A stretch of DNA of 64,000 nucleotides, taken from NCBI GenBank assembly GCA_917880885.1, contig OU862913.1:24995286-25059285 (forward strand), written 5' to 3'. Shown here piece after piece: positions 2,300 to 63,738 of this stretch. The notes below the pieces were generated by a model that was given only the letters and a program-made list of their open reading frames with translations, searched no databases and was not told the origin of the DNA. This stretch comes from Limnephilus marmoratus (lineage: Eukaryota; Arthropoda; Insecta; Trichoptera; Limnephilidae). Position 1 is the stretch's first letter. Each line of letters starts with the position of its first letter. The position numbers were made by a program, and so were the translations under genes.

Positions 2300-5200
2300 C
2301 TATAGGTGCTCAGCGGGTCTGGCTTCCTGGTGGCCACGGAGAAGATCAACTATCTCTTGGTGACCCTTTTCTTCCGCCATGGAGAGAACTGTGCGACCAT
2401 TCTGGTTCTGCAATGATGTATTGGCATTGTACTGTAGAAGTAACTCTACAATATTCTCATATCCATGGAATGCTGCCACAAACAATGCTGTTATACCGAT
2501 TCTGTTCTGATGGTTTATTTCTGCCCCGGAGTCTAGCAGCATGCGTGTCACCTCGTGGTGTCCATTGTATGCAGCCATCATCATGGCAGTAATACCTCTA
2601 CTATTTGCAAAGTTAACATCTGCTCCGGAGTCTAGCAGCATGAGTGTCACCTCGTGGTGTCCATTTTGTGCAGCCATCATCATGGCAGTAATACCATCAC
2701 TATTTGCAGAGTTAATATCTGCCCCGGAGTCTAGCAGCATGCGTGTCACCTTGTGGTATCCATTCCTTGCAGCCATCATCATGGCAGTATCACCATCACT
2801 ATTTGCAGAGTTAATATCTGCCCCGGAGTCTAGCAGCATGCGTGTCACCTTGTGGTATCCATTCCTTGCAGCCATCATCATGGCAGTATTACCATTACTA
2901 TTTGCAGAGTTAATGTCTGCCCCGGAGTCTAGCAGCATGCGTGTCACCTCGTGGTGTCCTCTCTCTGCAGCACTCATCATGGCAGTATAACCAAAATTAT
3001 GTTTGCAGTTAATGTAAGCCAACATTTCTTTAGAATATATTATATAATTATTTTGGTACTTTAATGTGATATCAGGGTTTTCGTATATTTTCTCTTTTCC
3101 ATCGTTTATCTGTGCATAAGTTTCTTCAGATTGATTTAATAAAAAATTAACTATTTTTAAATTTCCCCTCAGCGCTGCGTAATGCAAGGGAGTACGCCCC
3201 TTTTTATCATGCGATACACAAACTCCTTGTTTTGCAAATAATTTAAATAATGCATGATTTTGTTTATTTATTGCTAGATTTATAGCAGTTTCTCCTTGAC
3301 CATCAGTGGCAATCAATAAGTACGCTCGCTCTGTATCACTTTCCAGGTCACTGAAGATCTTTAACACAGTCTCATAGTCATTATCTCTCACTGCCGCAAT
3401 AAATGGCCCAAATATATCTTTTATATGACGTGTTCTTTCCAAAGCCTGGTTTACGCTAGGTAAATGCTGTGTTTTTAAAACATATTCTTCAAAATAAGAT
3501 CTTTCGATGTTTTTATCTTCCTTGTCTAAGAAAGTAGCAAGCATTAGTCCTACTATTGACTCATACAAGCAACTCCTTACATTCTCAGTTATTTGTTTTA
3601 CAATATTAGTATTTCCCTTCTCCAATGCTATATTCAGCACGGTCCTCCCATCCATGTCTCTTGATGTAATTAAAGAAATATAGCCTTCATCAGATGTCCT
3701 GCTGGGCGGGCCACTAAGAAGAACTCCAACAATGCGTGTATTCTGTTCCTCAGCTGCTATATGCAATGGAGTTTTTTTATGATCGTGGTAGAATAGCTGA
3801 CGATGTTGGTAAATTTGGTTGGTAAATTTGGTTGGTAAATTTGGTTGGTGTTGGTAATGTTTGTAAATTTTTGGATGATTTTTCAGTTCTTCATCAGAAA
3901 TTGGCGTTGTTTTAAGCTGTGTCTCGATGAACATTCTGATTATTTTATAGTCTGGCTTGAGCAAAAATTTACAAAATTCATTTTTAATCAGTGTGTTTTC
4001 TTCTTTACTGTTTCTCCCCTGTCGGAGCCATCGAACAAAGAAATCAGCACAAAAGTATTCTTGGAACGTCCGGTGTACAAAATGGAAAGTTCCATCAGTT
4101 TTATACTTTAATAGCCCGAGACTACTTATGTCTTTCTCTTCTTCGGTTGTCAGTTCAGATAGTTTAATGTTTGCGAAATTTTCCCTAGCGAATGTCGGGT
4201 CGATGGTCTGGAAAGCCAAGACACAATGTTTTTCCATCACACCTTCAAACACAGCTTTTTGGAGGGTAGGTGGAAGGAGCTTGTTGATATTAGTCTTTTG
4301 CTGAAAATATATTTTTTCCTTGACTTCAATGAACTGTTTATACAAGTCAAACAGATTGGTGATTTTGCGCAAGTTATTGACTTGTTCAGGAGATATCACA
4401 GACAGTATGGCCTGCTGGAGGAACACTTCTGCCAGCATACGGATCTGCAGCGGGATGCCCATGAAGCTGGCCACATCGTTCCTCAGCACTCCCTCAACCT
4501 CCTTCCGCAGACCTCTGGTAAACTGACGCAGCCTTCCCTTCTCCAGCTCTCCGTACTGTGGGAGTTCCAACGCCAGGTGAGGAAGCCAGAAGATCAACAA
4601 ATAATCCTCCTGCTCTTTTTCTGTAATTTTTTCCAGTTCTACCACAAATTCTTCCAAATCGTTTTCAAGCCAATTTTGTTGGTATTTCCGTGTGGTGACT
4701 ACTGTTTGACAGGTTGTCGCAGTTTTTAAATATTTCAGGAGCTCTGCCATTTTAACCTTACTTTCCTCAAAAATTTCGTCAAACGCATCCACCAAAACAC
4801 AAACCTGCCTCGAATTGTCTGATTGTAGGCAATATTCTAATAGACTGCTCAATATTTTTTTATCGGTAGTTAAACTCGATGCGTGAATCAAAAATTTGAT
4901 GACAGATTTCATGTCAAGTCTCGAAGGTAATTTTAAGTCAGCCAAATTCTTGTGGTCAATTCTCAATACCCAGGACTCTGGAATGAGCTCCGACATGCGC
5001 GTTAGTATGGTGGTCTTCCCCATACCAGGATCATCAGCGATGATGGTATGCTTCTTCCTCCTGACGCAGAAGTCCTTTTCCTTGATGGGGTCCTCGTAGT
5101 CCCTGGTGATGAAGGGGCGCAGGCCATCCAACGAGCCCTTGGAGTATTTCCACACCAGACACGGGTTGCCTCTAATCTCCAATATTTCAAAGTAGTGTTT

Positions 5201-8200
5201 ACTAAATGATTCCTCCTTTTTTTTGTCTTCGACGCTCAATTCTTGAGATGGTGATCTTATTATAAAGTGACTGTTATTTACAAGTGCGTCCTCAGCTTCG
5301 CCAGTTAAGCCAAAGATTTGTATTAACGAGTTTTTATCATTAACGTTGTTGAATATAAATAAATCCTTATCTTCCTTGTACTGGACGAATTCATTTATGG
5401 ATTTAATAGTGAGTCGACTGTAGAACTTCCTGGGCAGGTACACACTTGTATTGAAAATTTCATTCAGGGTGAAGCCTTCAGCGGATAAATGGAAAAAGTA
5501 AATTAGTCGAGCTGACCCCTCCCGACATTTTTCCAAAAACATTTCCTGCCCATCTTCCTCTGTGGTGTAGATTCTCCCCTTTAAACCCTCCCCCCAGTAG
5601 TCCTGACTGAGCCGCTTTGGATCGCTGATCACCAGCAGCGGTCCATCAGCCCCACTCCTCTCCAGTAATGCGGTAAGCCCCTCTCTGTCCACTATCTTAT
5701 TCCCTTTGGAATAGAGAGCACTTTGTTCACAAAGCCGGGGGAGGGTATTGGGGATTTTTTCTATACACAGGTTGTTCATCGCGAGGTCCTTCAAAAGGGG
5801 TGATATTAATTGATTTATTTTTTCATTGGGAGTTTTACAGTCATTTCCCAGTATAACTTCGAAGCTTAGGGTTTCTTCACCTATTGTAATTGCATCTCTG
5901 GAGAATATTTTTTCTCTAGACAAAGGAGTTAGATCTTCTAATTCAAATGTTTTTAAAGTCTTTGTTTCAACAGTTAGTTCAAATTCGTCATATAATTGTT
6001 CACCAATTGACTGAGATCGAATGATCACAAGCTTCTTGTGAATAAATAATCTTAAATTCTGCAATATGGTTCTCATAGGTTCGCAGTCTGGATGTATCTG
6101 TGGTTGATGTTGATGTTGTGGTTGATTAGTATCAGTTGAAGGTGGAAAATTAAGAATGAACAGATTATTATTGGTAACGTTGCACACGTTTTTATTGGTA
6201 TCGTCGTTCAAACCTGTGAAATTTATAGCTATATTATGCATATCATTCCAATTTAACATTGTATGACAGTTTGGATGCGTGTAGTCTTTTATATTCAAAG
6301 ATGTTAAGATGTTGCGAAATCTGGCAGCTTCAAATTCAAAATCACTTTTCACAATAATTTGTAAAACACGTTTAGCAGATTCTAGGAATGACTTCAATTC
6401 AAAGGTATCCTCGCAGTCTAGGATTTCAGGCAAGGTGCGGACATAAGCCCGGCTAGCATCGTACAAGGGGGCTGCCACTATACTGGTATTCTGTTCATCT
6501 AGAGCTTTCATGATATCTGGTTTCCACCAGCGCACCAATTGTTTCGTTTCTCTAATAACCTTTGTCAAATCTTCCTTTGAATTACAGGTGATGGTGTTTT
6601 TTATAATATCTGTCTCAAATATTGGGAGCTCTAACTTCTCCAAATTTTGATTATTAGTGAAATCATTAATTTTGGTACGTTGCATTAATGGAATGTTTTG
6701 AAAAGTTTTCCAATTTTGAATAAATTTGAATTCATCTGTGGAAAACACCCCCAGTTTAGAAGATTCTCCCGACCACGGATTAGTCTTGTAATGTAAGTTC
6801 TCCTTTGAGTGCGCATTCTGTAGTACTTTATTGATGTCGTCCAAATATTTGTGAAGTTTGCGAATATCGCGTGTGCTAATTTTGAACCTGTGTTCCTCCG
6901 AGTCACTGAAGAGAGTGACAGGATCAGTATTAATGACTTGCAGATGCCCCACTTGAAGGCCACGGAAGTTCACCACATTTGGAGTGGCATAGAAGGTTGT
7001 GCCAGTATTTCCTTCAACTGACTGTGTTTTTCGGTAGCTGCCACTAGAACTCCCAGAACGAAGGTTTTCGGCGTTTAGATTCAAAATGTCAGGGTTGCTG
7101 GACATGTCTTGCTTTGGGTCATTTTTGAGCTCTCCCAATCCATTAGACCCGTTCTGTGCTTTATATGATTTCTTCACATCATCCAATTTTTTGTGAAGAT
7201 TGTTTGCATCGTGTTTGCTCATTTTGTACCTGTGGTTTTCCGAGTTACTGGGGACATCAACAAGTTTAGTGTTAATCACTCGTTGAATGTCACGGAAGTT
7301 CCCCACATTTGGAGTGGGAAAGTAGATTGTGATGTCAGTGTTTCCTTCAGATGACTGATTATTTTGGTGGCTGCTAGAAATCCCGGAAGGAACGTTTTCA
7401 GCACTCGGATTCAAGATATTATGGTTTTGCTTGTGATAATTTATGAGCTCTCCCAATCCGTGAGGCCAGTTCTGTACCCGATCGGTTTTCTTCATAATAT
7501 CATTTCGGTGAAAATTTTCTATGAAGTGCGAGTTGATTTTATACCAGCGCTCCCCTGAGTCATTGCGGAGAGTGATAGGTTCAACAATAATCTTATGCAG
7601 ATTTCCCATATGATAACCGATGCAGTTCACAATATTCGGTTTGGCAAAGTAGGTTGTGATATCTAAATAAGTCGTAGGCATAGAATGGTCGTATCGAACA
7701 CTGTAATCTCTGGAAATTTTTAACAGCATGTCTTCGACCCCCGGGTTGTCCAAGGCAATAGTATGGGCATGTATACCTTCATCAGGGCAGGCAATGAAAC
7801 TTTTGCCTTCCCTCTTCAGATGTTTCACTGTCATGGTGGTGACTCCGGCCAGCCACCCCCCCTTGGAATGACCAACAATAGATAGAGTCAAACGAATGCC
7901 GGGTTGTTCGTTAATTTTCAAAATGGCTTCCTTCACGCCGTCTGCCAAAGTGACTGCAGATTCCATGTGTTTGGTGTATTGGTTAAAATAAATACTTTTG
8001 ATGTTAATTCCCCATGATCCCCAACACGCCGTTCCTCTGTGGGCTACCACTACCTGCTGCTGTGAAGGACACCAGAAGACGCACCCAAAGTATCCATTAC
8101 GCCAGGAGTTGCTCCGTGCAGTGGTGAGCAGAAACCACCCTTCGGGCAGGACTTCATTCTCCGGATGATCAAAGTACGCCAATTCTGCCAAGGCTGCCAA

Positions 8201-8323
8201 CACTCCAACATCAGGAAATGGTTCCATCTCCATTCTTGTTCGGTTGTCATCAATGTGATGGATATTTGATAGCTTTTTCCACCAGTCGGGTGAACTGTAC
8301 AATAGACTGCTGTCGGCCTGCAT
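2300..8323 (-). CDS. Lipase-NACHT-ankyrin protein, candidate NLR-like (STAND) receptor
   Basis: Uninterrupted frame. It is open from 8386 but that first codon is GTG; the first ATG is at 8323, with A at -3, so I start there (residues below are numbered from 8386). Residues about 55-265 resemble a class-3 lipase: VVVAHRGT (112-119), nucleophile elbow GHSKG with Ser174, a candidate acid Asp213 and His259. Residues 241-525 hold about three copies of a ~110-residue module. Residues 1111-1440 are a NACHT ATPase: Walker A DPGMGKTT (1119-1126), Walker B VLVDAFDE (1197-1204) and the FVHRTFQEYF helix (1426-1435). Ankyrin repeats begin near 1527 and are densest at 1799-2020. The family logic is an effector domain held off by a NACHT switch and a repeat sensor; that it senses infection or damage is inference. 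No signal peptide or membrane segment is apparent, so it is probably cytosolic. No intron is evident. All neighbours are mobile DNA, yet this frame is intact. Confidence 0.85.
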   Translation of the reverse strand: MQADSSLLYSSPDWWKKLSNIHHIDDNRTRMEMEPFPDVGVLAALAELAYFDHPENEVLPEGWFLLTTARSNSWRNGYFGCVFWCPSQQQVVVAHRGTACWGSWGINIKSIYFNQYTKHMESAVTLADGVKEAILKINEQPGIRLTLSIVGHSKGGWLAGVTTMTVKHLKREGKSFIACPDEGIHAHTIALDNPGVEDMLLKISRDYSVRYDHSMPTTYLDITTYFAKPNIVNCIGYHMGNLHKIIVEPITLRNDSGERWYKINSHFIENFHRNDIMKKTDRVQNWPHGLGELINYHKQNHNILNPSAENVPSGISSSHQNNQSSEGNTDITIYFPTPNVGNFRDIQRVINTKLVDVPSNSENHRYKMSKHDANNLHKKLDDVKKSYKAQNGSNGLGELKNDPKQDMSSNPDILNLNAENLRSGSSSGSYRKTQSVEGNTGTTFYATPNVVNFRGLQVGHLQVINTDPVTLFSDSEEHRFKISTRDIRKLHKYLDDINKVLQNAHSKENLHYKTNPWSGESSKLGVFSTDEFKFIQNWKTFQNIPLMQRTKINDFTNNQNLEKLELPIFETDIIKNTITCNSKEDLTKVIRETKQLVRWWKPDIMKALDEQNTSIVAAPLYDASRAYVRTLPEILDCEDTFELKSFLESAKRVLQIIVKSDFEFEAARFRNILTSLNIKDYTHPNCHTMLNWNDMHNIAINFTGLNDDTNKNVCNVTNNNLFILNFPPSTDTNQPQHQHQPQIHPDCEPMRTILQNLRLFIHKKLVIIRSQSIGEQLYDEFELTVETKTLKTFELEDLTPLSREKIFSRDAITIGEETLSFEVILGNDCKTPNEKINQLISPLLKDLAMNNLCIEKIPNTLPRLCEQSALYSKGNKIVDREGLTALLERSGADGPLLVISDPKRLSQDYWGEGLKGRIYTTEEDGQEMFLEKCREGSARLIYFFHLSAEGFTLNEIFNTSVYLPRKFYSRLTIKSINEFVQYKEDKDLFIFNNVNDKNSLIQIFGLTGEAEDALVNNSHFIIRSPSQELSVEDKKKEESFSKHYFEILEIRGNPCLVWKYSKGSLDGLRPFITRDYEDPIKEKDFCVRRKKHTIIADDPGMGKTTILTRMSELIPESWVLRIDHKNLADLKLPSRLDMKSVIKFLIHASSLTTDKKILSSLLEYCLQSDNSRQVCVLVDAFDEIFEESKVKMAELLKYLKTATTCQTVVTTRKYQQNWLENDLEEFVVELEKITEKEQEDYLLIFWLPHLALELPQYGELEKGRLRQFTRGLRKEVEGVLRNDVASFMGIPLQIRMLAEVFLQQAILSVISPEQVNNLRKITNLFDLYKQFIEVKEKIYFQQKTNINKLLPPTLQKAVFEGVMEKHCVLAFQTIDPTFARENFANIKLSELTTEEEKDISSLGLLKYKTDGTFHFVHRTFQEYFCADFFVRWLRQGRNSKEENTLIKNEFCKFLLKPDYKIIRMFIETQLKTTPISDEELKNHPKIYKHYQHQPNLPTKFTNQIYQHRQLFYHDHKKTPLHIAAEEQNTRIVGVLLSGPPSRTSDEGYISLITSRDMDGRTVLNIALEKGNTNIVKQITENVRSCLYESIVGLMLATFLDKEDKNIERSYFEEYVLKTQHLPSVNQALERTRHIKDIFGPFIAAVRDNDYETVLKIFSDLESDTERAYLLIATDGQGETAINLAINKQNHALFKLFAKQGVCVSHDKKGRTPLHYAALRGNLKIVNFLLNQSEETYAQINDGKEKIYENPDITLKYQNNYIIYSKEMLAYINCKHNFGYTAMMSAAERGHHEVTRMLLDSGADINSANSNGNTAMMMAARNGYHKVTRMLLDSGADINSANSDGDTAMMMAARNGYHKVTRMLLDSGADINSANSDGITAMMMAAQNGHHEVTLMLLDSGADVNFANSRGITAMMMAAYNGHHEVTRMLLDSGAEINHQNRIGITALFVAAFHGYENIVELLLQYNANTSLQNQNGRTVLSMAEEKGHQEIVDLLRGHQEARPAEHL
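2535..2990 (-). repeat. 99-bp tandem ankyrin-coding units
   Basis: At least four consecutive 33-codon units are almost identical in DNA as well as protein (unit core TAMMMAARNGYHKVTRMLLD). The flanking ankyrin repeats are strongly diverged. This indicates recent unit duplication or gene conversion inside the NACHT gene. Confidence 0.9.
6810..7666 (-). repeat. Internal triplication (~330 bp units) within the NACHT gene
   Basis: Three successive segments (residues about 241-349, 350-460, 461-525) share the order [ITxYF/FY]..PN(I/V)VN.., an acidic/Ser-rich HR(Y/F)K(M/I) block, LHKxLDD(V/I), NGLGEL, ILN.NAENxxSGxSS and S(S/V)EGNT. The first copy overlaps the end of the lipase domain and contains its likely catalytic His259; copies two and three lack that residue. 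Confidence 0.8.
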
Positions 8324-8436
8324 GTTGGATGGGAGACTGATTCTGCAACAAGGATAACAGCCTGAGTTGGTATTGTGGCACTGCACCCAGATGATTTTTT
8401 TGCAGTTTTAACAATACGTCTACATGTCAAATCACA

Positions 8437-31672: not shown

Positions 31673-33354
31673 AATGAAAAAAATATATATTATAATTAAA
31701 TAGATTTTGGCGCAAACGAATAAAAAAAGATGGCGTATTTATTTGTATAGTCGGCTGAGGAAAAATGCGTTGTTGCTACCTACATATGACGTAAGTATGA
31801 CATAAGAGGTGACGTAGGTAACGCGTTAAGAAAAGATGATGAAATGAAGTGGAAATGAAATAAATAAGTACTATGTCGAGTTTTAAGTTATTGAGTTCCT
31901 TTTCAGCAAGTTAATATATTCCATTCCATCAGTTAGTTTAAAAAGGACTTACCGGAAGAAGTTGATGATTCTTGATTGATACGGAGCAAAGTCAAATCAC
32001 TTTAATTTATTGTTATTTTGAAAACTTTAATATTATTATAACTGAACACTGGGAATACAGATAGGCAGGTAACTAATTGTCAGATTTTGGTTGAAATAGT
32101 TTTGCACACAACAAGATAACTCACAGCTTGACACAGGTATATAACGAATTCTTAAGAAAGAATTTAATTTGTCGTTAAGCAGAAGAAAAAATTAGAAAGT
32201 CACAAGGTGTGAGGTGTTTTAACAAGGATGGGCTTGATAATAAGTAAAGTGTGCAGGTTTTTGCAGTATCAGTAGTCTGTTACTGGCTTATCAATTATTG
32301 CTATCAATAGCAACTGATTTATCTTATCTGCCTCAATAGATAAACACCAAGGACCGAGCGGTTCGATCACTTCAATTTTTCATAACTTGATTTGAAATTT
32401 TCACGACCGAAAGAATTATCGTGTTTTATTTTTGGGACGTTTTGCCGTGTTGCGCTATCTCCTTCTAGAACCAACATTTCGCGCAGCGTTACAGGGCAAA
32501 TGTGTAATTAAAGATTGTCATATTTTTATTGGTTTTGTAGATTTTTTTTCCATGAAATGGGAATAGGCCACTTGATCATTTTTCAATTTTTTTTCCGGTT
32601 AAGGCAAATATTCTAAGACATTCTGTACTTTCTTTTTATGAAACCCTGGCGATTATTTGAAAATTTCAATCCGAAAAATCAGACCATTTTTGATGAAACG
32701 GAAAGACGATAATTACATAGCCGAAAATCATTTAAAAAAAATGTTTTCCACACAAATGGCACAGGAAAATAACAAGGCATACCAAAATTATTACTCATCT
32801 CATAAATATTTTCTATCTTGATCCATCTTATTGATCATAAATCATTATAATGTTCAATAATAATAACAATAATAATAATAAGAAAATAATAATATTTTAG
32901 CTCTCTGATTTTTTTATTGTATTTGATAGAAAAGAATTTGCTTTGATCCCAAAACATATAAATATTTGAAAATAAGTATATTAGAAAACGTAATAAATAA
33001 ACTGCCAGTGAACCGTAGGATATTTAGGTAAATAAATACAATATAAATTTTCCTTTTGTGAGGACTTCAGTAACCAAGGTAAACAACAATATTTTGAGAT
33101 TACGTTGAAATATATTTTGTAGGTAAATTTAATTATATATTTTATTTTGATAACATTATTCTAAAATATAATATATATATTATAGATTTGTAGTATTAAA
33201 GGGTAGTTTACATTAAAATATTTAATTTGGACATATTGAAAATTATTTGTTGACAAATGACAGCACTAGATAACGACGACAGTTGCTTGGTTACTGGAAT
33301 GTAGGAATAATAATTAATAACAATCATTTCCAAGTTGTTTTGAAAGGTGACAAA
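31673..33354. other. 5' region of the LINE, AT-rich
   Basis: No long frame. About 32,425-32,500 carries one arm of the 30,159 hairpin family. An AATAATAATAAG-type microsatellite lies near 32,870. Confidence 0.5.
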
Positions 33355-34689
33355 ATGTCATTTTCAACCAACGGAAATGAAAATGGGTTTATTATGTCAT
33401 CTATACAGATGAACATTGATAATCTGAGACCCCAAAAAACAAAAGCAGGTATTCCTAGGCAGCGTATGAAATGGACGAACCATTTCAATATGTTCATCGT
33501 TCGTTCATATTTTTATGTAACTAAACTAGAAACAGATATGTTATTGTATAGGAAAAAATTACATTTACTTTTCTCACAAAATTATCCGGTTGCCCAAGTA
33601 AACGAACAAAGATTAGCTGACCAAAAAAGGGCAATTTTAAAAAATAATTTAATTCCTGTAGTAACATTAAATCAGATAAGAAAAGAAGTAGCAGATAGAT
33701 TGCAATTGGAGAATAATGTAGAACAAATTAATACGAGTAGTAATGTTATATTAGATGCATTGAATGAAGATAGTTTAGATAATATTCTAGTAGAAGAATC
33801 CAATGATATTACAGTAGATTCAAATAACTTAGACATTATCCATAATCTTAGGGAAATCAATATTGCAAATTTAAACTTACTAAATGATAATGTAATAGAA
33901 TTAGCTAACTTGCTTCAAAATAATATAAATAGATATATAGATATAGAGCCCACAGTTAGACCAAAATTACCAAAATTGCATACGTCAAAGAAATTATCTA
34001 AATTAATTTCTGAATTAAATAATTTAATTTTACCAAAAATAATATTTGACGATATTAGTTTTTTAGATCTTCATACAATAGTGTACGCTAGTGCTATCAC
34101 TATATGTAATAAGTTAGGAGTTAAATTAACGTCCTCTGATGATAGATCATATAGTTATAGTAAACCAGAATGGCAGATTAGATTAGAAAATGATGTAGTA
34201 TTTTTAAGAAGTAGTATAGCTAGAGTAATTGAATATAAAAATGGAAATAGAAGTAGGAATATTTTGAGATATGTAGATGAAATTGGGAGAAAATTTGGTT
34301 ATAGCATTGGTAGTAATAGTAATGAAAATATAATCAATGATTTATTAGATTTATTAAAACAAAAATTAGGTGTAAAAGCTAGTAGATTAAAAAGATATAA
34401 TTATACGTATAATAAAAGAAATAATAATAGATTATTTCAGAAAAATGAGAAAATATTTTATTCCAAACTTGACGATAAACAGAATATTATTTCGAATAAT
34501 AATATTCCGTTGCCATCTGAATCAGATATGCGCGATTTTTGGACAAACATTTGGAGTAAAGATATAAAACATAATGAGGCAGGTAACTGGATAGAAAATG
34601 AAGAACTCAATTGTTCAGACATTGAACAAATTAGTTTTTCTGATATATCGGTTGAATTGTTAGCCAAAATTATAAAAACTATCTGCTAA
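33355..34689 (+). CDS. LINE protein, N-terminal part (RT core deleted)
   Basis: I chose the ATG at 33,355; the frame is open a little further up without an ATG. About 445 residues, Asn/Ile/Lys-rich, with a basic start (RQRMKWTNHF). Near the end is the pattern MRDFWTNIWSK...HNEAGNWI (residues about 383-403), which in R2/RTE-like LINE proteins lies shortly before the reverse transcriptase. The frame stops just after it, where the RT fingers and palm should begin. It is therefore the N-terminal half of a non-LTR retrotransposon polyprotein truncated by an internal deletion. An alternative, that this is an ORF1, is less likely given the pre-RT signature. Confidence 0.65.
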   Translation: MSFSTNGNENGFIMSSIQMNIDNLRPQKTKAGIPRQRMKWTNHFNMFIVRSYFYVTKLETDMLLYRKKLHLLFSQNYPVAQVNEQRLADQKRAILKNNLIPVVTLNQIRKEVADRLQLENNVEQINTSSNVILDALNEDSLDNILVEESNDITVDSNNLDIIHNLREINIANLNLLNDNVIELANLLQNNINRYIDIEPTVRPKLPKLHTSKKLSKLISELNNLILPKIIFDDISFLDLHTIVYASAITICNKLGVKLTSSDDRSYSYSKPEWQIRLENDVVFLRSSIARVIEYKNGNRSRNILRYVDEIGRKFGYSIGSNSNENIINDLLDLLKQKLGVKASRLKRYNYTYNKRNNNRLFQKNEKIFYSKLDDKQNIISNNNIPLPSESDMRDFWTNIWSKDIKHNEAGNWIENEELNCSDIEQISFSDISVELLAKIIKTIC

Positions 34690-34721
34690 AAATTTAGTAC
34701 TATCTGCTAAAAATTTAGTAA
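34676..34721 (+). repeat. 21-bp direct duplication at the deletion junction
   Basis: CTATCTGCTAAAAATTTAGT occurs twice in tandem exactly where the N-terminal frame ends and the C-terminal frame begins. Confidence 0.9.
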
Positions 34722-35851
34722 AAGCAATAAATACTTGGGCAATACCTCTATTAACGTACTCATTTGGCATAATTAAATGGTCCAATACAGATTTAGATAG
34801 TTTAGAACGATTAATTAGAACTACGTTAACAAAGTTTAATTGCCATCATCCAAATTCAGCTATAGAACGTATTAATTTACCTAGAAATTTAGGAGGTAGA
34901 GGTGTAGTCAAAATAACATCTTTGAAACACAATCAGGTAGAAATGCTTAGAAATTTTTTCCATAGGAAAGCTAATAGCTCAGAAATGCACAAAATAATTT
35001 GCAAGGCAGATAGAAACATTACTCCATTAAATTTATATGACGAGAATGCCAACATTCTTATAAATACTAACCAGGAATTATTAGATTCCTGGTCAAATAA
35101 AATTATTCATGCAAAACACTTCAATTATCTCAACCAAACGTATGTTGACAAACTTTCGTCAAACAAATGGTTGAGTATTGGAGAGTTGAGCGCAGAAATA
35201 GAAGGATTTATGCTTGCCATTCAAGATAGAGTCATTAATACTAAAAATTATAGAAAGCATATAATCAAAGATATAAATCAAATTGATGATTTATGTAGAA
35301 AATGTTTGGCTTTTCCTGAAACTATAGAACATATTATATCGGGATGTTCTATATTAGCGCCGTCCGAATATACATTTAGGCACAATCAGGTTTTAAAAAT
35401 AATTCACCAAAGTTTGGTAATTAAACATAACTTGATTGACTGCCGTAATATAGTACCATATTATGAATATGAACAAAATTCATTTTTAGAAAATGAATTT
35501 TATAAAATATATTATGATAAAACTATACTAACAGACAGAACAATTAGTCATAATAGACCAGATATAGTTTTACATGACAAAATTAAAAAAATAACTTATA
35601 TCATTGATGTAGCTATTCCAAATTCCTGTAATATTCAAAGAACTGTTTCTGAAAAAATAAGAAAATACACAGATTTAGGAAATGAGATTAAAAGAATTTG
35701 GCATTCTCGGACTATAAAAATATTACCATTTGTTATTTCGGCCACTGGCATAATACCTAGGAATCTGATTCAAAATTTAAGCATATTAATTAGATTTGTC
35801 AAAGAATTTGTATATAAAAATGCAAAAAGCAGTAATTTTAAATACATGTAG
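34679..35851 (+). pseudogene. LINE protein, RT thumb plus restriction-like endonuclease
   Basis: The open frame continues from the junction. First is an RT-thumb pattern (AINTWAIPLLTYSFGIIKWS, then RTTLTKFNCHHPNSAIER, LPRNLGGRGVV). Next is a zinc-knuckle CRKCLAFPETIEHIISGC (CX2CX7HX4C), then NRPDIVLHDK...IIDVAIP, a PD-(X14)-D arrangement. The CCHC knuckle followed by PD..D is the signature of the restriction-like endonuclease of R2/R4/CRE-type LINEs, which nick the target site for reverse transcription. It lacks its own start and the RT catalytic core, and is in a different frame from the N-terminal part, so the element cannot move alone. Confidence 0.75.
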
Positions 35852-39825: not shown

Positions 39826-39925
39826 CTAGCTGACCCGACGAACTTCGTACCGCCTCAGAATCAAAAACTGTTGTCAACTTATTAACTGAATTGATCTAAA
39901 TTGTTTCTCCCTGCGTATCCTTTCC

Positions 39926-40211
39926 CCTCTCCCTCTCCCTCTCCCTCTCCCTCTCCCTCTCCCTCTCCCTCTCCCTCTCCCTCTCCCTCTCCCTCTCCCT
40001 CTCCCTCTCCCTCTCCCTCTCCCTCTCCCTCTCCCTCTCCCTCTCCCTCTCCCTCTCCCTCTCCCTCTCCCTCTCCCTCTCCCTCTCCCTCTCCCTCTCC
40101 CTCTCCCTCTCCCTCTCCCTCTCCCTCTCCCTCTCCCTCTCCCTCTCCCTCTCCCTCTCCCTCTCCCTCTCCCTCTCCCTCTCCCTCTCCCTCTCCCTCT
40201 CCCTCTCCCTT
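39926..40211. repeat. (CCCTCT)n hexanucleotide array, ~48 units
   Basis: Essentially perfect CCCTCT repeats inside the Helitron. The purine strand is (AGAGGG)n. Long Pro-Ser or Arg-Glu frames across it are artefacts. Confidence 0.97.
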
Positions 40212-40286
40212 CTCCCCTTCCCCCGTCCCGCTAACCCCCTTCCTGAGTTCCTCTCCCCCCTCCCCCCTCCCCCCTCCTCCGGTTCA

Positions 40287-40640
40287 CAGTTCAATATTAT
40301 ACCCCTTACAATACTGCTGCAGTTCTTTCAAAATAGGAGAATTCGTTCCATACAAAATTTATGGGGAAAATAATTTTCTTCGGAGTGGAACACCCTTTAT
40401 TCACGCACAGTTCAATATTATACCCCTTACAATATTGCTGCAGTTCTTTCAAAATAGGAGAATTCGTTCCATACAAAATTTATGGGGAAAATAATTTTCT
40501 TCGGAGTGGAACACCCTTTATTCACGTACAGTTCAATATTATACGCCTTACAATATTGCTGCAGTTATTTCAAAATAGGAGAATTCGTTCCATACAAAAT
40601 GTATGGGGAAAATAATTTTCTTCGGAGTGGAACACCCTTT
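40287..40640. repeat. Three tandem 121-bp units in the Helitron
   Basis: CAGTTCAATATTATACCCC begins units at 40,287, 40,408 and 40,529. Each has AATAGGAGAATTCGTTCC and CTTCGGAGTGGAACACCC. The same triplet is in the other copy at about 63,245-63,600. Confidence 0.95.
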
Positions 40641-46911: not shown

Positions 46912-49900
46912 TTAATCCATGCGAACAATATCCTTTACATGAAAATTTCCTACAATTTTACCGTTCATATCAGCTAGAGTATAGACCAAATTAGAGACTT
47001 TACCTTTAATAACATTGCGAACGAATCTAGGGGCCAATTTGTGAGAGAAATAATTCGGTCCACTGGATTGAACGAAATTCTTCCTCCAAACGACATCGCC
47101 TACTTCATAATTAACCGTCTTACGGCGTAAATTGTAGTGTTGGGCATTTTTCTTAAAAGCTTGTAACAAAGCATTTGAAACTTGTTCATAAATTGGAACT
47201 AAGTCTTCCAACTTCTTAGCAAATTCGTCCCTAGATTGCTGCAACGTAGTGTCTACGACACCAGAAGATAAGTTATTTTTATGAAAGTTTCCGTCAATAA
47301 TTTGTTCCCTACCATGCATGAGGAAGAAGGGGGTGAAGCCGGTTGCAAAATTAACCGTGTTATTGAGAGCTGATTGAATTTGAGGCAGAAATCTGGACCA
47401 ATTACGCTGGTCAGATTCGGTTAAAATAGACAAAGCAGTTCCAATGGTTTGGTTATAGCGTTCGACCACGTTATTTTGGGGAGTATAAAAAGCATTATAA
47501 AAAGGCGGAGGTACGTTATACTCTGCTAACAATTGTTTAAAGTCTTTTGAAATAAATTGTTTTCCGTTGTCGCAGACGCACGTTTGCGGTACCCCGTGTA
47601 CAAGGAATATGTATTGTTCAATGTTTTTAACAATGCTTTTAGTAGTTGCATTTCTAAGCGGAAAAATCCAGGTATATTTAGAAAATACATCAACGACTGT
47701 TAGAATATACATAAATCCTGCATAGCTACGCGGAAGAGGACCGACAAGGTCAATAGACAGCATTTGCATAGGTCTTGTGACTATTTTCGGGTTCGTAGAA
47801 ATGCCTGCCGGCGCAGCAGTGTTAATTTTATGTGCCTTACACGTTTTACATCTATTGACAAAATTTTTGACGTCATTATACATCCCTGGCCAAAAATAAT
47901 GAAGTTGAACCTTCTTATATGTTCTAAAAACTCCTGGATGACAAGAGATAACCGACTCATGTTCTTTAGATAGAACAGCGTTACGGTCCTCAAAAGGAAC
48001 AACAAGCTTCCAAGCTGTGTCCTCCTGCAGAGCGAAACGAGATTTAGTGTGACGAAATAATTTATTTTCCTTAATTTGAAAATTATTAAAACGTTGTGGA
48101 TTTGATTTACAATTAGAAAATAAGGTATTATACCAAGTATCTGTACTCGTGGGAGCGGAATCAACGGCCGAAATTAAAGAAACGTCTTTACGTGAAAGAA
48201 CGTCCGGAACCGTATTTAATTTACCTTTCCTATGTATAACATCAAAAGAGTACTGTGACAGCCGAGTAGACCAGCGAGCAAGCCGACCTGTTGGATTAGA
48301 TAATGAGACTAACCACTGTAGACTAGAATGGTCCGTTACCACAGTGAAGTGAGCACCTTCTATGTAGGGCCTAAAATGGTTGACTGAATCTAACACCGCT
48401 AGGAGTTCGCGCTCCGTCACGCCGTAGTTTCGTTCATGCACATTAAGACACCTAGAGAAATAAGATACAGGGTGCTCCTCTCCTTCAAAAATTTGTGTAA
48501 GTACACCTCCGATCCCAACGTTGCTCGCGTCACAGTGAATCGTGAAAGGAAGCGAAAAATCCGGACAATTAATAACAGGGGCAGAAGTCAACGCCTTCTT
48601 TAATTTCTTAAAAGACAACTCCGCTTCAGGAGACCAAGAGAAATTACTAATTCCCTTCCTTGAACCAGTGAGTTTTGTTAAGGGAGCAGCAATGGTTGAA
48701 AAATCCTTTATAAAACGCCTATAATACCCGCACAGGCCAATGAAAGCTTTTACCTGTTTAGAATTCTTTGGAATGGGGTAAGTACGAATGCATTCCAACT
48801 TAACTGGGTCTGTGCGAAGTCCTTTTGCATCCACAACGTAACCGAGATACTTCAATTCATCCTTGCAAAACTCGCACTTTTTCAAATTGACAGTTAAGCC
48901 TGCTTCTTTCAGACGCAAGAAAACCCTATTTAATTGCTCTAAATGTGAATCGATATCTTCTGAAATTATAATTAGGTCATCCAAATAGCAAAAAACGTTT
49001 TCGTCGAACTCTGGACCAAAAAGTGCATCAACCAGACGCTGAAGTTCACTAGGAGCGTTTTTTAACCCAAACGGCATCCTAACGAATTCAAACAAGCCAT
49101 GTCCAGGTACTACAAAAGCCGTTTTGCAGCAAGAATCCTTATGTAAAGGGATTTGCCAGAAACTTTTCGATAAGTCAATAGAAGATATGAAGCGTGCACC
49201 ACGTAGCTTGTCTAAAATACGCGAAATATACGGCAAGGGGTAGGAATCTCTTGTCGTGACGCTGTTAAGCTTCCTGGAGTCTAAGCAGAACCTTGCAGAA
49301 CCATCCTTTTTAGGCACAATCAAAACCGGGTTCGACCAAGCCGAACGCGAACGTCGAACAACACCTAAGTCAAGCATTTCTTTAAGTTGAGCTTCAAGTT
49401 GTTTTTGACGTGTTTGAGACAACGGGTAATATCGTTGCTTAATGGGATCTCCCGTCGTATTAATTTTGTGCTGAACTAAATGAGTACGACCCAATCCACA
49501 TTTTTCAAAAGAAATTGACTTAAATTTATCAATTACATTATTTAACCTATGATTGTCTTGAGGGGACAGTAGGGAAGCTGACGTGATCTTGCGAATTTCA
49601 CTTATAGTATTTTCAACATCACGACCGCTGTTGGCCTTTGAAAACAATTGAGGAGCGATGTCAAATTGTTTCCAAAAGTCGACTCCCAAAACAATCACAG
49701 GTGAAAGAGAAGGAATAACAAAAAAGGTAACATATTTCTTAAAATTATTATAAGTAACTAGTACTCGCATAGTACCAATTACATCTTGACGTACACCATC
49801 AGCGGTGGTAACGTACGATTCTAACTTATCTAGATTAAACCCTAAACTAATAAAGAAGTTGTAAAGAGAACCGCCAAAACAACTGACAGTCGCACCACTG

Positions 49901-49995
49901 TCCAAAAGACCTGAAAAGACAAGGTTTTGAATCGAAATATTCGCATGGGGTCTTATATCTTGTCCAGAACTAGCCATCGGCATGCATGCGTCCAT
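46912..49995 (-). CDS. pol: Gypsy pol: protease, RT, RNase H, integrase
   Basis: 1,027 codons from the first ATG; the frame is open upstream to the gag end, so the protein is probably made as a Gag-Pol fusion by -1 frameshifting. Aspartic protease LLDSGAT (residues 30-36). RT with FVRMPFGLKNAP (304-315) and catalytic YLDD (337-340). RNase H: HCDAS (488-492, Asp489) and TDHSS (554-558, Asp555). Integrase: zinc finger H679, H686, C716, C719, then D749, D809 and E845 with D-35-E spacing, and a VGDVVW-containing C-terminal barrel. All catalytic residues are present; no stop or frameshift. No chromodomain seen. Confidence 0.96.
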   Translation of the reverse strand: MDACMPMASSGQDIRPHANISIQNLVFSGLLDSGATVSCFGGSLYNFFISLGFNLDKLESYVTTADGVRQDVIGTMRVLVTYNNFKKYVTFFVIPSLSPVIVLGVDFWKQFDIAPQLFSKANSGRDVENTISEIRKITSASLLSPQDNHRLNNVIDKFKSISFEKCGLGRTHLVQHKINTTGDPIKQRYYPLSQTRQKQLEAQLKEMLDLGVVRRSRSAWSNPVLIVPKKDGSARFCLDSRKLNSVTTRDSYPLPYISRILDKLRGARFISSIDLSKSFWQIPLHKDSCCKTAFVVPGHGLFEFVRMPFGLKNAPSELQRLVDALFGPEFDENVFCYLDDLIIISEDIDSHLEQLNRVFLRLKEAGLTVNLKKCEFCKDELKYLGYVVDAKGLRTDPVKLECIRTYPIPKNSKQVKAFIGLCGYYRRFIKDFSTIAAPLTKLTGSRKGISNFSWSPEAELSFKKLKKALTSAPVINCPDFSLPFTIHCDASNVGIGGVLTQIFEGEEHPVSYFSRCLNVHERNYGVTERELLAVLDSVNHFRPYIEGAHFTVVTDHSSLQWLVSLSNPTGRLARWSTRLSQYSFDVIHRKGKLNTVPDVLSRKDVSLISAVDSAPTSTDTWYNTLFSNCKSNPQRFNNFQIKENKLFRHTKSRFALQEDTAWKLVVPFEDRNAVLSKEHESVISCHPGVFRTYKKVQLHYFWPGMYNDVKNFVNRCKTCKAHKINTAAPAGISTNPKIVTRPMQMLSIDLVGPLPRSYAGFMYILTVVDVFSKYTWIFPLRNATTKSIVKNIEQYIFLVHGVPQTCVCDNGKQFISKDFKQLLAEYNVPPPFYNAFYTPQNNVVERYNQTIGTALSILTESDQRNWSRFLPQIQSALNNTVNFATGFTPFFLMHGREQIIDGNFHKNNLSSGVVDTTLQQSRDEFAKKLEDLVPIYEQVSNALLQAFKKNAQHYNLRRKTVNYEVGDVVWRKNFVQSSGPNYFSHKLAPRFVRNVIKGKVSNLVYTLADMNGKIVGNFHVKDIVRMD

Positions 49996-50084
49996 GTCAC
50001 GCCTGAAGAACCGGTTACTGGAGCTATAAACTAAGGGTGATGATCTCCTGGCATCCTTGCTAGCAGGACGCAGAGGATCACACT

Positions 50085-51008
50085 CTAGTTTTTTGGATTT
50101 GTGCGAGCGGGGTCATCTCGGCGTTTGTCAGAATTCTTCTGAGAATCAAACTTCCATTTTCTACAAAAAGGTTTTGTATGACCTTGCGCCTTACAATAAA
50201 AACAATTTAAAGTTTTTCTACTATTCGAAGAAGAAGAATGTGTAGGAGAAGAGGATGTTGCTTGAGGAGAAGTAAAATGCGGTAAGGGTTTATCTACGGA
50301 GTGCTTTTCAAATCTCCTACACACATTTACCAAAGAAGATAATTCCTTTTCTGCAAAATATGCGATGGCCAATGCGTATTTAGGTAACAGACTATCAGAA
50401 ACTAGGTCTACCAACTGTTCCTCCGTAAGTTGAACGTCTAATCTGAGATTAGCTAATTTAACTTCATCAACGTAATCCACAACACTTTGGTTAAATTTCT
50501 GTTTCATCGCGAATAAAGCTTTTAGGGCCTCTGTTTGATTAATACAACGGTCAAAACGTGCAATGAGGAGATTTCTCAACTCAGGCCAAGATAATGAATC
50601 TTTATAAATAGTCCTATACCAAGAGAGAGCTTTCCCCTCCAAAAGATCTGCAAAGGACGTCACAACCGATGACAGTTCTATATGACGGCATCTAGATAAT
50701 TCCTCCACACGTTGTATAAAATCCCTAACATCAGAAGAACCAGAAAATTTAATACCCCAAGAATGTACGGACGTATTTGTATTTATCGATTGATAATAAT
50801 TATTGACTATGTTTGTAGTCTGACTCGCATTATCACTATTGCCTTCATTTTGTTGTGGAGAATCACTACTTGATTGTTTTAAACTTTTATTATATATGCG
50901 AGCCTGTTCCCGCATAGCTGATAACGTAGGCTCTGGAGTGATATTTAATTCAGATAACATCTGTATCATCTCCTCCTTAGTTGCACCGTTAATATTAGTA
51001 ATCGCCAT
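50085..51008 (-). CDS. gag: Gypsy gag
   Basis: 307 residues starting at ATG 51,008. The centre has the retrotransposon-gag pattern ALSWYRTIYKDSLSWPELRN followed by LLIARFDR. A single zinc knuckle CFYCKAQGHTKPFC (CX2CX4HX4C) is at residues 269-282, followed by a basic tail. It should form the cytoplasmic particle and bind RNA. The stop TAG immediately follows a slippery heptamer. Confidence 0.93.
   Translation of the reverse strand: MAITNINGATKEEMIQMLSELNITPEPTLSAMREQARIYNKSLKQSSSDSPQQNEGNSDNASQTTNIVNNYYQSINTNTSVHSWGIKFSGSSDVRDFIQRVEELSRCRHIELSSVVTSFADLLEGKALSWYRTIYKDSLSWPELRNLLIARFDRCINQTEALKALFAMKQKFNQSVVDYVDEVKLANLRLDVQLTEEQLVDLVSDSLLPKYALAIAYFAEKELSSLVNVCRRFEKHSVDKPLPHFTSPQATSSSPTHSSSSNSRKTLNCFYCKAQGHTKPFCRKWKFDSQKNSDKRRDDPARTNPKN
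50088..50094 (-). promoter_or_regulatory. -1 ribosomal frameshift heptamer A AAA AAC
   Basis: In the gag frame the last codons are CCA AAA AAC TAG. Slipping back one base on A_AAA_AAC enters the pol frame (next codon CTA), which is open through to the pol ATG and beyond. The position directly before the stop and the exact X_XXY_YYZ form make this convincing. Downstream ATCCT...AGGAT may form the stimulatory stem. Confidence 0.88.
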
Positions 51009-51821
51009 TTTGTTTTGTTTTTTTTTTTTTTTTAATTTTAAATTTGGGAAAAAATAATTAAATAATTATTGAATTTAAAAAAAAAATAATGTACTTTATA
51101 GTTTGAAATACCGGACACCCTGTAAAGCAAATTATCCTTCATTAAAAAAATTATTAGAAAAAAAAAATCAAAATTATTTTCCAAAAAAAAAAAAAAAATT
51201 TTTTATGTATGTAGCTCACCGGACATTTTATAATGTATGTAGCTCACCGGACACCGTGTAAAGCCAATGGATCACCGGAACTAAAATTCCCTCAAAACAA
51301 AGCAAGTTTTTCCGCGAAAAATTATAAAAAGAATCCACATCGTCTTCCCTTGTAAATTTTTAATTGTATATCCAATTAATGTACAAAACCCTTTCACAAT
51401 ATAACGTATCTTCTTATTTGCGAAAACAAAACACAACAATTGTTTTGATGTTTAGACAACTGACACTTAAATCCAGTATTGCCAGAAAAGAGAATATTTT
51501 TCGCTGTAAATTATTCAAGCTGTCACTGGTACCAATGTACATTAAATTGCGGGAAACAATATATTAACACGCACATTTTTTTTTATATATGGCAATAGAT
51601 ATAACTAAACGTCAAACTTTGGTAATCAACAAGTTCAAATGCATAATTGCAAATAACTAACTTACTACCCACACACTGATGAGTTGTAAAATGACATCGT
51701 AAAAAGCAGACAAATTATATAACATTAAATAAGACTATTCTTATAGATATATGCATGATCTATAAATACCCTTCCGAACACCTGTTTAATATACTTAAAA
51801 AACTCTTTCGTTGGGCGCAAA
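51009..51821 (-). other. Gypsy 5' untranslated leader
   Basis: AT-rich leader between the PBS and the gag ATG, with T/A runs and a duplicated ATGTATGTAGCTCACCGGAC word (about 51,206 and 51,233). No frame. Confidence 0.75.
51803..51821 (-). promoter_or_regulatory. Primer-binding site, tRNA-Lys-like
   Basis: Sense strand right after the 5' LTR reads TTTGCGCCCAACGAAAGAG. GCGCCCAACG matches the common core of tRNA-Lys primer sites (TGGCGCCCAACG); the first bases differ. Confidence 0.6.
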
Positions 51822-60387: not shown

Positions 60388-60612
60388 CTATTATTATAAG
60401 CAATAATTATCAGCCTGAAACACTCATCCACATTGAAAAATCTTCCGAGAAAAGATACATGACGCCAACGGGACATGAACCCGTGCCCTTCTGATTGCCG
60501 GTCAGCTGCTCTCCCAATTGAGCTATGGCCCGTTGGCGTCATGTATCTTTTCTCGGAAGATTTTTCAATGTGGATGAGTGTTTCAGGCTGATAATTATTG
60601 CTTATAATAATT
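60388..60612 (-). mobile_element. tRNA-derived SINE in a head-to-head palindrome
   Basis: Minus strand: tRNA-like head (next entry), then the body TTTTCTCGGAAGATTTTTCA to TTGCTTATAATAATAG. A second body copy runs in plus orientation from 60,526, so ~87-base arms (60,388-60,474; 60,526-60,612) flank the head. Confidence 0.85.
60461..60540 (-). tRNA. tRNA-Ala-like SINE head (not a functional tRNA)
   Basis: A box TAGCTCAATTGGGAGAGC and B box GGGTTCATGTCCC at proper spacing; the anticodon-loop reading CCGGCAA suggests GGC (Ala). The acceptor stem pairs only in its inner four positions, so it serves as the SINE pol III promoter rather than a tRNA gene. Confidence 0.6.
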
Positions 60613-61298
60613 GTTTCCCTTTGTGCCATGCATAAAAATCTTGTCTTAAACGTTAGTTTAACAATTAAAAATAATAATTATCATTACTTTTTTATTATAC
60701 TTTATCTGTCTGAAGATAAATTCTGGACTATTTAAAGACAATTTTTTGGCTCAAAGTGAATGGAGAGTCTAGCCAATGATAAGACGTAGATGGTATTATA
60801 GATGGGAGTTAATCTCAAGTTATAACCTCTAAGTTAGATATAGATGGGAGAATTGCCAAGCCTCCCCCCCCCCCCCCCTCCTCCCCCCCCCCCCCCCCCC
60901 CTTCCACCCCTTTCCCATTTAAGAATTTATCCATCCATTTAGAACGAGACGCTCAAAGAGATGTTCAACTGCTAGTAGTGTTGTGGGAGTCACGGTGCGG
61001 TGTGTGAGAGAGATGCAAGAAAATTTTGATTTTTTTCCATTGGAGGAAACAGACCTACGCACATTGTATATCTCATCTTTTGAAAGAGCTGTAGCAATAT
61101 TGTGATAAGGAACGTATGTTTATTGATTTTATGCCGTCACGGTAAATAAAAAATCGACCATAAAAAGTATATAAGAGAATGTATTTGAAAATGCCATCAT
61201 GCATTGACCATATCTTTTTTTTTAAGTAAAACTTCTTTATACACGCTCGACGTGTTGGTGAATACGTTACGGAAAAGGATATATACATTTTAAGCAAA
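60613..61298. other. Intergenic with C run and dispersed repeat
   Basis: C runs at 60,864-60,902. 61,030-61,145 matches the family at 41,051 and 42,895 in plus orientation. No gene. Confidence 0.5.
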
Positions 61299-61895
61299 CG
61301 GTGACGGGGATGGTGACGGGGACGGGGACGGGGACGGGGACGGGGACGGGGACGGGGACGGGGACGGGGACGGGGACGGGGACGGGGACGGGGACGGGGA
61401 CGGGGACGGGGACGGGGACGGGGACGGGGACGGGGACGGGGACGGGGACGGGTACGGGGACGGGGACGGGGACGGGGACGGGGACGGGGACGGGGACGGG
61501 GACGGGGACGGGGACGGGGACGGGGACGGGGACGGGGACGGGGACGGGGACGGGGACGGGGACGGGGACGGGGACGGGGACGGGGACGGGGACGGGGACG
61601 GGGACGGGGACGGGGACGGGGACGGGGACGGGGACGGGGACGGGGACGGGGACGGGGACGGGGACGGGGGCGGGGGCGGGGGCGGGGGCGGGGGCGGGGA
61701 CGGGGACGGGGACGGGGACGGGGACGGGGACGGAGACGGGGACGGGGACGGGGACGGGGACGGGGACGGGGACGGGGACGGGGACGGGGACGGGGACGGG
61801 GACGGGGACGGGGACGGGGACGGGGACGGGGACGGGGACGGGGACGGGGACGGGGACGGGGACGGGGACGGGGACGGGGATGGGGACAGGGATAA
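61299..61895. repeat. (GACGGG)n hexanucleotide array, ~98 units
   Basis: Nearly perfect GACGGG/GGGGAC repeats with a short GGCGGG patch at about 61,666-61,697 and single variants near 61,453 and 61,735. The Gly-Thr frame across it is an artefact. The plus strand has a GGG run every six bases. Confidence 0.97.
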
Positions 61896-61974
61896 GGAGG
61901 ATAAGGATAAGAGGGAGATATAAGTTAGTGAAGTTTTACTTCAGTCGTGTGGTCTAAAGTCTAAAGCATACTCG

Positions 61975-62800: not shown

Positions 62801-63738
62801 CTAGCTGACCCGACGAACTTCGTACCGCCTCAGAATCAATAACTGTTGTCAACTTATTAACTGAATTGATCTAAATTGTTTCTCCCTGCGTATCCTTTCC
62901 CCTCTCCCTCTCCCTCTCCCTCTCCCTCTCCCTCTCCCTCTCCCTCTCCCTCTCCCTCTCCCTCTCCCTCTCCCTCTCCCTCTCCCTCTCCCTCTCCCTC
63001 TCCCTCTCCCTCTCCCTCTCCCTCTCCCTCTCCCTCTCCCTCTCCCTCTCCCTCTCCCTCTCCCTCTCCCTCTCCCTCTCCCTCTCCCTCTCCCTCTCCC
63101 TCTCCCCCTCCCTCTCCCTCTCCCTCTCCCTCTCCCTCTCCCTCTCCCTCTCCCTCTCCCTCTCCCCAATTCACTTCTCCCCTTCCCCCGTCCCGCTAAC
63201 CCCCTTCCTGAGTTCCTCTCCCCCCTCCCCCCTCCTCCGGTTCACAGTTCAATATTATACCCCTTACAATACTGCCGCAGTTCTTTCAAAATAGGAGAAT
63301 TCGTTCCATACAAAATTTATGGGGAACATAATTTTCTTCGGAGTGGAACACCCTTTATTCACGCACAGTTCAATATTATACCCCTTACAATATTGCTGCA
63401 GTTCTTTCAAAATAGGAGAATTCGTTCCATACAAAATTTATGGGGAAAATAATTTTCTTCGGAGTAGAACACCCTTTATTCACGTACAGTTCAATATTAT
63501 ACGCCTTACAATATTGCTGCAGTTATTTCAAAATAGGAGAATTCGTTCCATACAAAATGTATGGGGAAAATAATTTTCTTCGGAGTGGAACACCCTTTAC
63601 TTTTAGGGGCATGAAAAATAGATGTTGGTCGATTCTCAGACCTACCAGATAAGCACACAAAATTTCATCAAAATTGGTCCAGCCGTTTCGGAGGAGTATG
63701 GCAACAAACACCGTGACACGAGAATTTTATATATTAGA
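62801..63738 (-). mobile_element. Non-autonomous Helitron with (CCCTCT)n array, copy 2
   Basis: Minus sense TCTAATATATAAAATTCTCG ... GGGTCAGCTAG; host A at 62,800, host T at 63,739. Same interior as 39,826: the hexanucleotide array (62,901-63,166, ~44 units), three 121-bp units, and a common TCATCAAAATTGGTCCAGCC end. Confidence 0.93.

Follow-up and report, generated by a model that had tools for sequence, protein, structure and literature searches.

Vertebrate NOD-like receptors (NLRs) carry death-fold domains at their N-terminus, and in plants, EDS1, PAD4 and SAG101 are separate proteins that act with NLRs and whose lipase activity is dispensable. To our knowledge, insects lack NLR repertoires, and insect immunity works without a large set of intracellular receptors. 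In fungi, according to a published study (PMC4986451), NLRs can join a sesB-like (lipase/esterase) effector to NACHT and ankyrin repeats, and in Podospora, positive selection acts, with one exception, at ankyrin positions on the concave binding face. Here, we describe a gene of the caddisfly Limnephilus marmoratus encoding a predicted lipase, a NACHT module and ankyrin repeats. It lies on the minus strand at positions 2300–8323 of a 64,000-nucleotide stretch of chromosome 8 (24,995,286–25,059,285; hereafter the window), where an initial annotation, made from the sequence alone, had proposed a 6-kb frame for such a protein; the frame is real and encodes 2,007 amino acids at the same coordinates.

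The initial annotation treated this gene as a single candidate, but it belongs to a family that numbers at least 246 loci. Many of its paralogues are intact, which bears in part on one of the grounds for rejection named at the outset, namely no expression together with no intact orthologue. The genome searched comprises 67 contigs with 1,629,871,801 bases (chromosome 2, 75,643,674; chromosome 8, 61,040,969; the mitochondrial contig C67, 15,402). Two lipase queries yielded at least 242 distinct loci, and four more were added through a NACHT query; these counts are lower bounds, since the first lipase query had 150 of its 324 candidates scored and the second 150 of its 372. With no fewer than 245 related loci elsewhere in this genome, the window frame is not a chance occurrence, and most copies read at length combine a predicted lipase, a predicted nucleotide switch and an ankyrin array. 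Based on modelled class 3 lipase and NLR-type folds, candidate catalytic residues that are conserved, frames that stay open over long stretches, a constrained lipase alongside a fast-changing ankyrin region, a concentration of changes on ligand-contact positions and the swapping of regions among paralogues, we consider the family likely to serve as intracellular immune receptors of an NLR-like kind, equipped with a predicted lipase of their own. From sequences and models, we infer recognition of a non-self ligand, a nucleotide-driven switch, enzymatic activity of the lipase and a role in immunity. In this scheme, a ligand would be bound by the ankyrin array, switching and oligomerisation would fall to the NACHT module, and the predicted lipase at the N-terminus would then be released to cut membrane lipids, leading to signalling or cell death.

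The AlphaFold2 model of residues 1–302, counted from the Met, has a predicted local distance difference test score (pLDDT) of 88.3, and both Foldseek and VIA match it to class 3 lipases; the lipase resembles plant phospholipase A1. The alpha/beta-hydrolase fold, whose absence had been named as grounds for rejecting the idea, is thus what the model gives. Among 51 aligned caddisfly lipases, Ser153 is invariant, Asp221 is found in 46 (Asn in five) and His238 in 47 (Gln in four), and the nucleophile elbow usually reads GHSLG (48 of 51). Relatives were admitted to this comparison only with GHS[LMKQ]G (37 of 46); the nine excluded were four with the Ser replaced (I, A, F, C), two with GHSIG or GHSTG and three lacking the elbow part. 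GHSxG is present in 26 of the 26 longer caddisfly loci first read, 20 short loci were chosen regardless of Ser, and later counts leave out L020 (1.6 kb) as well as L022, which is part of L023. The GHSKG elbow of the initial annotation is present in the window copy; the likely catalytic His is His266, not the conserved His238. All 31 caddisfly copies whose reading reaches this position have His266, as do 37 of 43 relatives (those of the 46 with HRGT); it is missing from three of the four relatives that lack the Ser, whereas His238 is present in all 43, Ser-less ones included, and was rejected as the catalytic residue. Because loss of His266 goes with loss of the Ser while His238 stays, Ser153-Asp221-His266 is, by sequence, the predicted catalytic triad, and the window copy retains it; the Ser-to-His spacing of 113 equals that of the Rhizomucor lipase. 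The metagenomic relatives P0019, P0024, P0027 and P0040, which have Ile, Ala, Phe or Cys at the catalytic Ser position, are likely inactive paralogues.

The complete Walker A and Walker B motifs reported earlier for the NACHT domain are present in the window copy together with a winged-helix His motif, and the modelled module has an NLR-type fold, with structural matches including NOD2, NLRP3 and NLRC4 (spanning model residues 408–1015). In the broad sense of NLRs or signal transduction ATPases with numerous domains (STAND), the layout agrees, with a predicted N-terminal lipase and C-terminal ankyrin superstructure repeats; in the strict sense, which asks for C-terminal leucine-rich repeats (LRRs), it does not, as ankyrin repeats stand in their place and no LRR family was found in Pfam at E up to 1. 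Because the alignment used was full length, a profile search of the PDB gave mainly ankyrin matches, and PADLOC matched the ankyrin region and, weakly, the ATPase region. Of the 350 candidates of the NACHT query, 149 were scored. Eight of these rows, at seven places, had no tabulated lipase within 9 kb, and at the four places that were read, a lipase was found each time. No other effector domain was found among the 149 rows, with three places that have no tabulated lipase (on C14, C19 and C23; fragments or broken) left unread. Two open frames on chromosome 8 (C8:28770588-28773713 and C8:29174741-29177851) have two NACHT matches each, which suggests internal duplication of the switch.

Selection was estimated from 19 pairs in seven paralogue groups. 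The ratio of non-synonymous to synonymous substitution rates (dN/dS) was 0.14–0.46 in the lipase, 0.28–0.79 in NACHT and 0.47–2.57 in the ankyrin region, where it exceeded the lipase value in all 19 pairs and exceeded 1 in nine; the pooled ratios of non-synonymous to synonymous differences (pN/pS) were 0.35, 0.46 and 0.91, respectively. Within the ankyrin repeats, we considered as contact positions 2, 3, 5, 13, 14, 26 and 33, which we take to be the seven positions randomised in designed ankyrin repeat proteins (DARPins). Residues differ there in 353 of 682 comparisons versus 574 of 2,618 elsewhere, with a pN/pS of 1.32 (95% interval 1.07–1.68) versus 0.92 (0.77–1.09). Of the seven positions randomised in DARPin engineering, natural arrays vary at six; position 26 is not variable (0.23), and positions 1, 10 and 16 are. 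Regions are also exchanged between paralogues. The window gene is a mosaic of an L002-like N-terminal half (lipase 87–91%) and an L003-like NACHT half (93–96%), and in L011, the final part of L012 (99–100%) is joined to an L010-type lipase.

Several observations weigh against an immune receptor family, or against the window copy as a typical member of one. The Lys154 that follows the nucleophile is found in the window copy only (1 of 51), which also departs from the commonest residue at positions 107, 110 and 193 of the same alignment, and, of the 19 pairs, its comparison with L002 gives the highest lipase dN/dS, 0.46. His266 is missing from 3 of 39 relatives that have the Ser. The Pfam check proposed with the initial annotation was decisive for ankyrin (Ank_2, E 1.4e-76), but NACHT (E 0.005), nSTAND3 (E 0.015) and Lipase_3 (PF01764; E 0.017, 15.5 bits against a cut-off of 22) stayed under their curated cut-offs in the window copy, though the relatives P0007 and P0017 exceed those for both NACHT and Lipase_3 (the latter with 23.7 and 24.8 bits). 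Frames are shorter than 1,200 amino acids in 40 of the 242 loci, some of which are perhaps decayed. The pairs used for selection are not independent, and gene exchange may disturb dN/dS. Two chromosome-2 groups show a pN/pS of 1.95 at contact and 1.58 at framework positions, and the other five groups, pooled, 0.72 (not above 1) and 0.60; values above 1 thus come from the chromosome-2 groups, in which framework positions share in the excess. NLR-type modules, moreover, have non-immune roles too, and some NLR-fold proteins among the structural matches belong to the cytoplasmic lattice of the mouse oocyte. Together with the likeness to plant phospholipase A1, these matches would suit an NLR-like switch for lipid signalling or for germline or symbiont control, its ankyrin diversity reflecting many endogenous partners. 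We regard such a non-immune role as unlikely, given that repertoire size, cassette exchange and contact-site diversification resemble the fungal non-self receptors (PMC4986451).

The distribution and integrity of the copies bear on a second alternative. Frames reach at least 1,200 amino acids in 202 of the 242 loci and at least 600 in 224, leaving 18 shorter ones; among the matches listed, stops within the lipase stretch appeared in no row for the first lipase query and in four rows for the second. Neutral change of 0.03–0.15 per site would give a mean of 6 to 32 stops per frame. The loci form 60 groups, of which 35 are singletons and the largest have 29, 24, 22, 18, 18 and 17 members; most loci lie on chromosome 2 (126) and chromosome 8 (59). 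Certain pairs are identical or nearly so, and a few loci may therefore be assembly duplicates. High copy number, uninterrupted frames, clustering on mainly two chromosomes, near-identical pairs and retroelements elsewhere in the window could also be expected of a selfish or mobile multigene element (transposon cargo, a drive or a toxin-like system), whose lipase would harm rivals or competing genotypes rather than respond to infection. This, we think, is quite improbable: in eleven locus pairs, homology stops at points that range from within the coding sequence to 1.1 kb upstream of it, and no common element ends appear in the short flanks examined, as in segmental duplication, and a constrained lipase with diversifying ankyrin contacts fits recognition. 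A predicted splice acceptor before the ATG also speaks against it. The start Met itself sits in an N-terminus common to the paralogues. In 13 of 24 copies, a strict polypyrimidine-CAG pattern precedes the ATG by 5–37 nt, versus 72 of 737 background windows; the window copy, whose acceptor is weaker and outside this pattern, is not among the 13. The description of the gene as single-exon thus applies to its coding part, which is uninterrupted, since the acceptor predicted shortly before the Met suggests that the 5' leader is spliced.

A genome note (PMC10509604) describes a high Hi-C signal common to chromosomes 2 and 8 and ascribes it to shared repeats; these are the chromosomes that carry 185 of the 242 tabulated family loci.

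Arthropod origin of the NLR-like candidate, as initially proposed, is supported by the mitochondrial COI (C67), which has 100% identity over 98% of its length with a Trichoptera cluster and 99% with Limnephilus abstrusus and L. decipiens. Named arthropod matches are hypothetical proteins of Photinus pyralis, Pyrocoelia pectoralis, Blomia tropicalis and Chamberlinius hualienensis. NACHT-ankyrin proteins of Hypothenemus and Culex were also matched and have no lipase motifs; P0004 (Hypothenemus hampei) and P0005 (Culex pipiens) have in common an N-terminal region different from the lipase, and the idea, formed by eye, of a nuclease-type N-terminus found no support in Pfam or PADLOC. Query A1 found no relative in genome contigs or viral contigs, in a weak search with two peptide patterns each. 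The lipase tree has 109 tips and 246 columns. It groups the caddisfly copies into one clade of 25 (support 1.0) and a second of 25 with P0006 (0.988), leaving L009 apart; fireflies lie nearby (0.688), bacteria are not one clade, and deeper nodes are weak. The lipase alignment search gave 26 bacterial loci with 23–38% lipase identity, the closest mostly from Rickettsia, Rickettsiales and Proteobacteria. Of the eight bacterial loci scanned, L058, L061 and L066 have NB-ARC above the cut-off and tetratricopeptide repeats (TPR), L066 lacking Lipase_3 at E 0.001; L060 has NB-ARC under the cut-off and TPR, L057 and L068 TPR, L059 weak ankyrin and L062 the lipase alone. Lipase gene transfer between arthropods and bacteria, in either direction, is possible and would be old. 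That the caddisfly copies are non-functional remnants of genes from intracellular symbionts is very improbable despite the lipase domain common to Rickettsia, Rickettsiales and Legionella proteins and the intronless coding parts, being largely refuted by the intact frames and opposed by purifying selection on the lipase, chromosomal clusters and the two well-supported clades separate from bacteria.

The features of the gene are collected in Table 1. Its insert partly repeats the end of the lipase region, with recurring AKPNIVN/ATPNVVN segments.

Table 1. Parts of the lipase-NACHT-ankyrin gene in window coordinates (ORF, numbering by open reading frame)
Feature	Position	Strand	Basis or remark
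Open frame, 2,035 codons stop to stop	2300-8407	-	
Lipase-NACHT-ankyrin coding frame, 2,007 codons + stop	2300..8323	-	First Met at 8323
Predicted 3' splice acceptor CTTGTTGCAG	8343..8344	-	19 nt before ATG; aligned with matching site in paralogues
Class 3 lipase-like domain, approximate limits	7418..8215	-	AlphaFold2 model, Foldseek and VIA matches
Nucleophile elbow GHSKG	7859..7873	-	Ser153 codon 7865-7867, Lys154 codon 7862-7864
Asp221, predicted catalytic Asp	7661..7663	-	Conservation among caddisfly lipases
His266 (Met numbering), predicted catalytic His	7526..7528	-	Conservation pattern among copies and relatives
Insert, missing from most paralogues	6809..7336	-	Residues ~358-533 unmatched in most loci
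Linker region, ORF ~540-980	5468..6790	-	Model: alpha/beta, pLDDT ~80 in part
NACHT, helical and winged-helix module	3926..5458	-	
Walker A ADDPGMGKTT, ORF 1124	5009..5038	-	Motif reading
Walker B CVLVDAFDEI, ORF 1203	4772..4801	-	Motif reading
Winged-helix His motif FHFVHRTFQEYF (FVHRTFQEY)	4052..4087	-	Motif reading
Ankyrin-repeat region, left limit approximate by eye	2309..3499	-	Pfam Ank_2; nine repeats by profile of the family's own repeats
Six tandem 33-residue ankyrin repeats	2408..3001	-	First five alike; repeat positions 3, 5 and 13 vary most

Elsewhere in the window, a Gypsy-type retroelement with gag-like and protease-reverse transcriptase-integrase frames was recognized by eye at 46912-51065 (minus strand), as were two adjoining frames resembling a non-long terminal repeat retroelement at 33274-35851 (plus strand). 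Long simple-sequence arrays, with SP, PR, GT or LP repeats in several frames, occupy 39895-40494, 61073-61957 and 62865-63452. An Rfam tRNA match at 60460-60532 (minus strand; 47.5 bits), not called by ARAGORN, may belong to a short interspersed nuclear element. Outside the window, a second COI copy at C28:25770511-25771848, scoring the same as the mitochondrial one (415.1 bits), is probably a nuclear insertion or an assembly artefact.

On balance, we lean towards an insect repertoire of about 250 germline lipase-NACHT-ankyrin receptors, whose binding faces would be diversified by selection and by the exchange of recognition regions among effector lineages. Such a set would parallel, in an animal, the non-self repertoires of fungi and plants, with a lipase module shared with the intracellular bacteria of arthropods. 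If true, the view that insect immunity runs without a large set of intracellular receptors would be overturned, and a tractable insect would become available for the study of a lipase effector switched by a NACHT module. The link between these arthropod genes and the lipase-STAND proteins of Rickettsia-type symbionts also makes origin and transfer direction testable. Among the matches listed in the open-licence literature searched, we found no description of lipase-NACHT-ankyrin proteins of arthropods or caddisflies. The scale, the host and the mode of diversification are new, while in anatomy the kind of protein matches the guess of the initial annotation.

The other arthropod proteins have the GHSLG lipase and a related central region, with ankyrin also in the fireflies and the mite, but each named species gave a single match (at 90% clustering), that of Chamberlinius had no ankyrin call, and the protein names give no function. 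The Lipase_3-NB-ARC-TPR proteins of Rickettsia endosymbionts (L058 and L061; L060) and a Legionella lipase-AAA-TPR protein (L068) likewise have a related lipase followed by a STAND-type or AAA ATPase and then repeats; they differ in using NB-ARC or another AAA domain and TPR, whereas the caddisfly family has NACHT and ankyrin. In vertebrate NLRs such as NOD2, NLRP3 and NLRC4, the NACHT, helical and winged-helix module can be aligned over approximately 300 residues and includes the winged-helix His motif, but they carry LRRs where the caddisfly family has ankyrin repeats, and the N-terminal predicted enzyme is on the caddisfly side. Plant EDS1, PAD4 and SAG101 also count among the nearest known systems, differing in being separate proteins that work alongside NLRs. 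The parallel with fungal STAND proteins drawn by the initial annotation is supported: in PMC4986451, the sesB-like NLRs have the same order of parts and ankyrin repeats that are internally very similar. The fungal effector is called sesB-like there, and the caddisfly effector, with its class 3 lipase fold, is set apart from it by name; the caddisfly family, furthermore, belongs to an insect and numbers at least 246 loci in a single genome.

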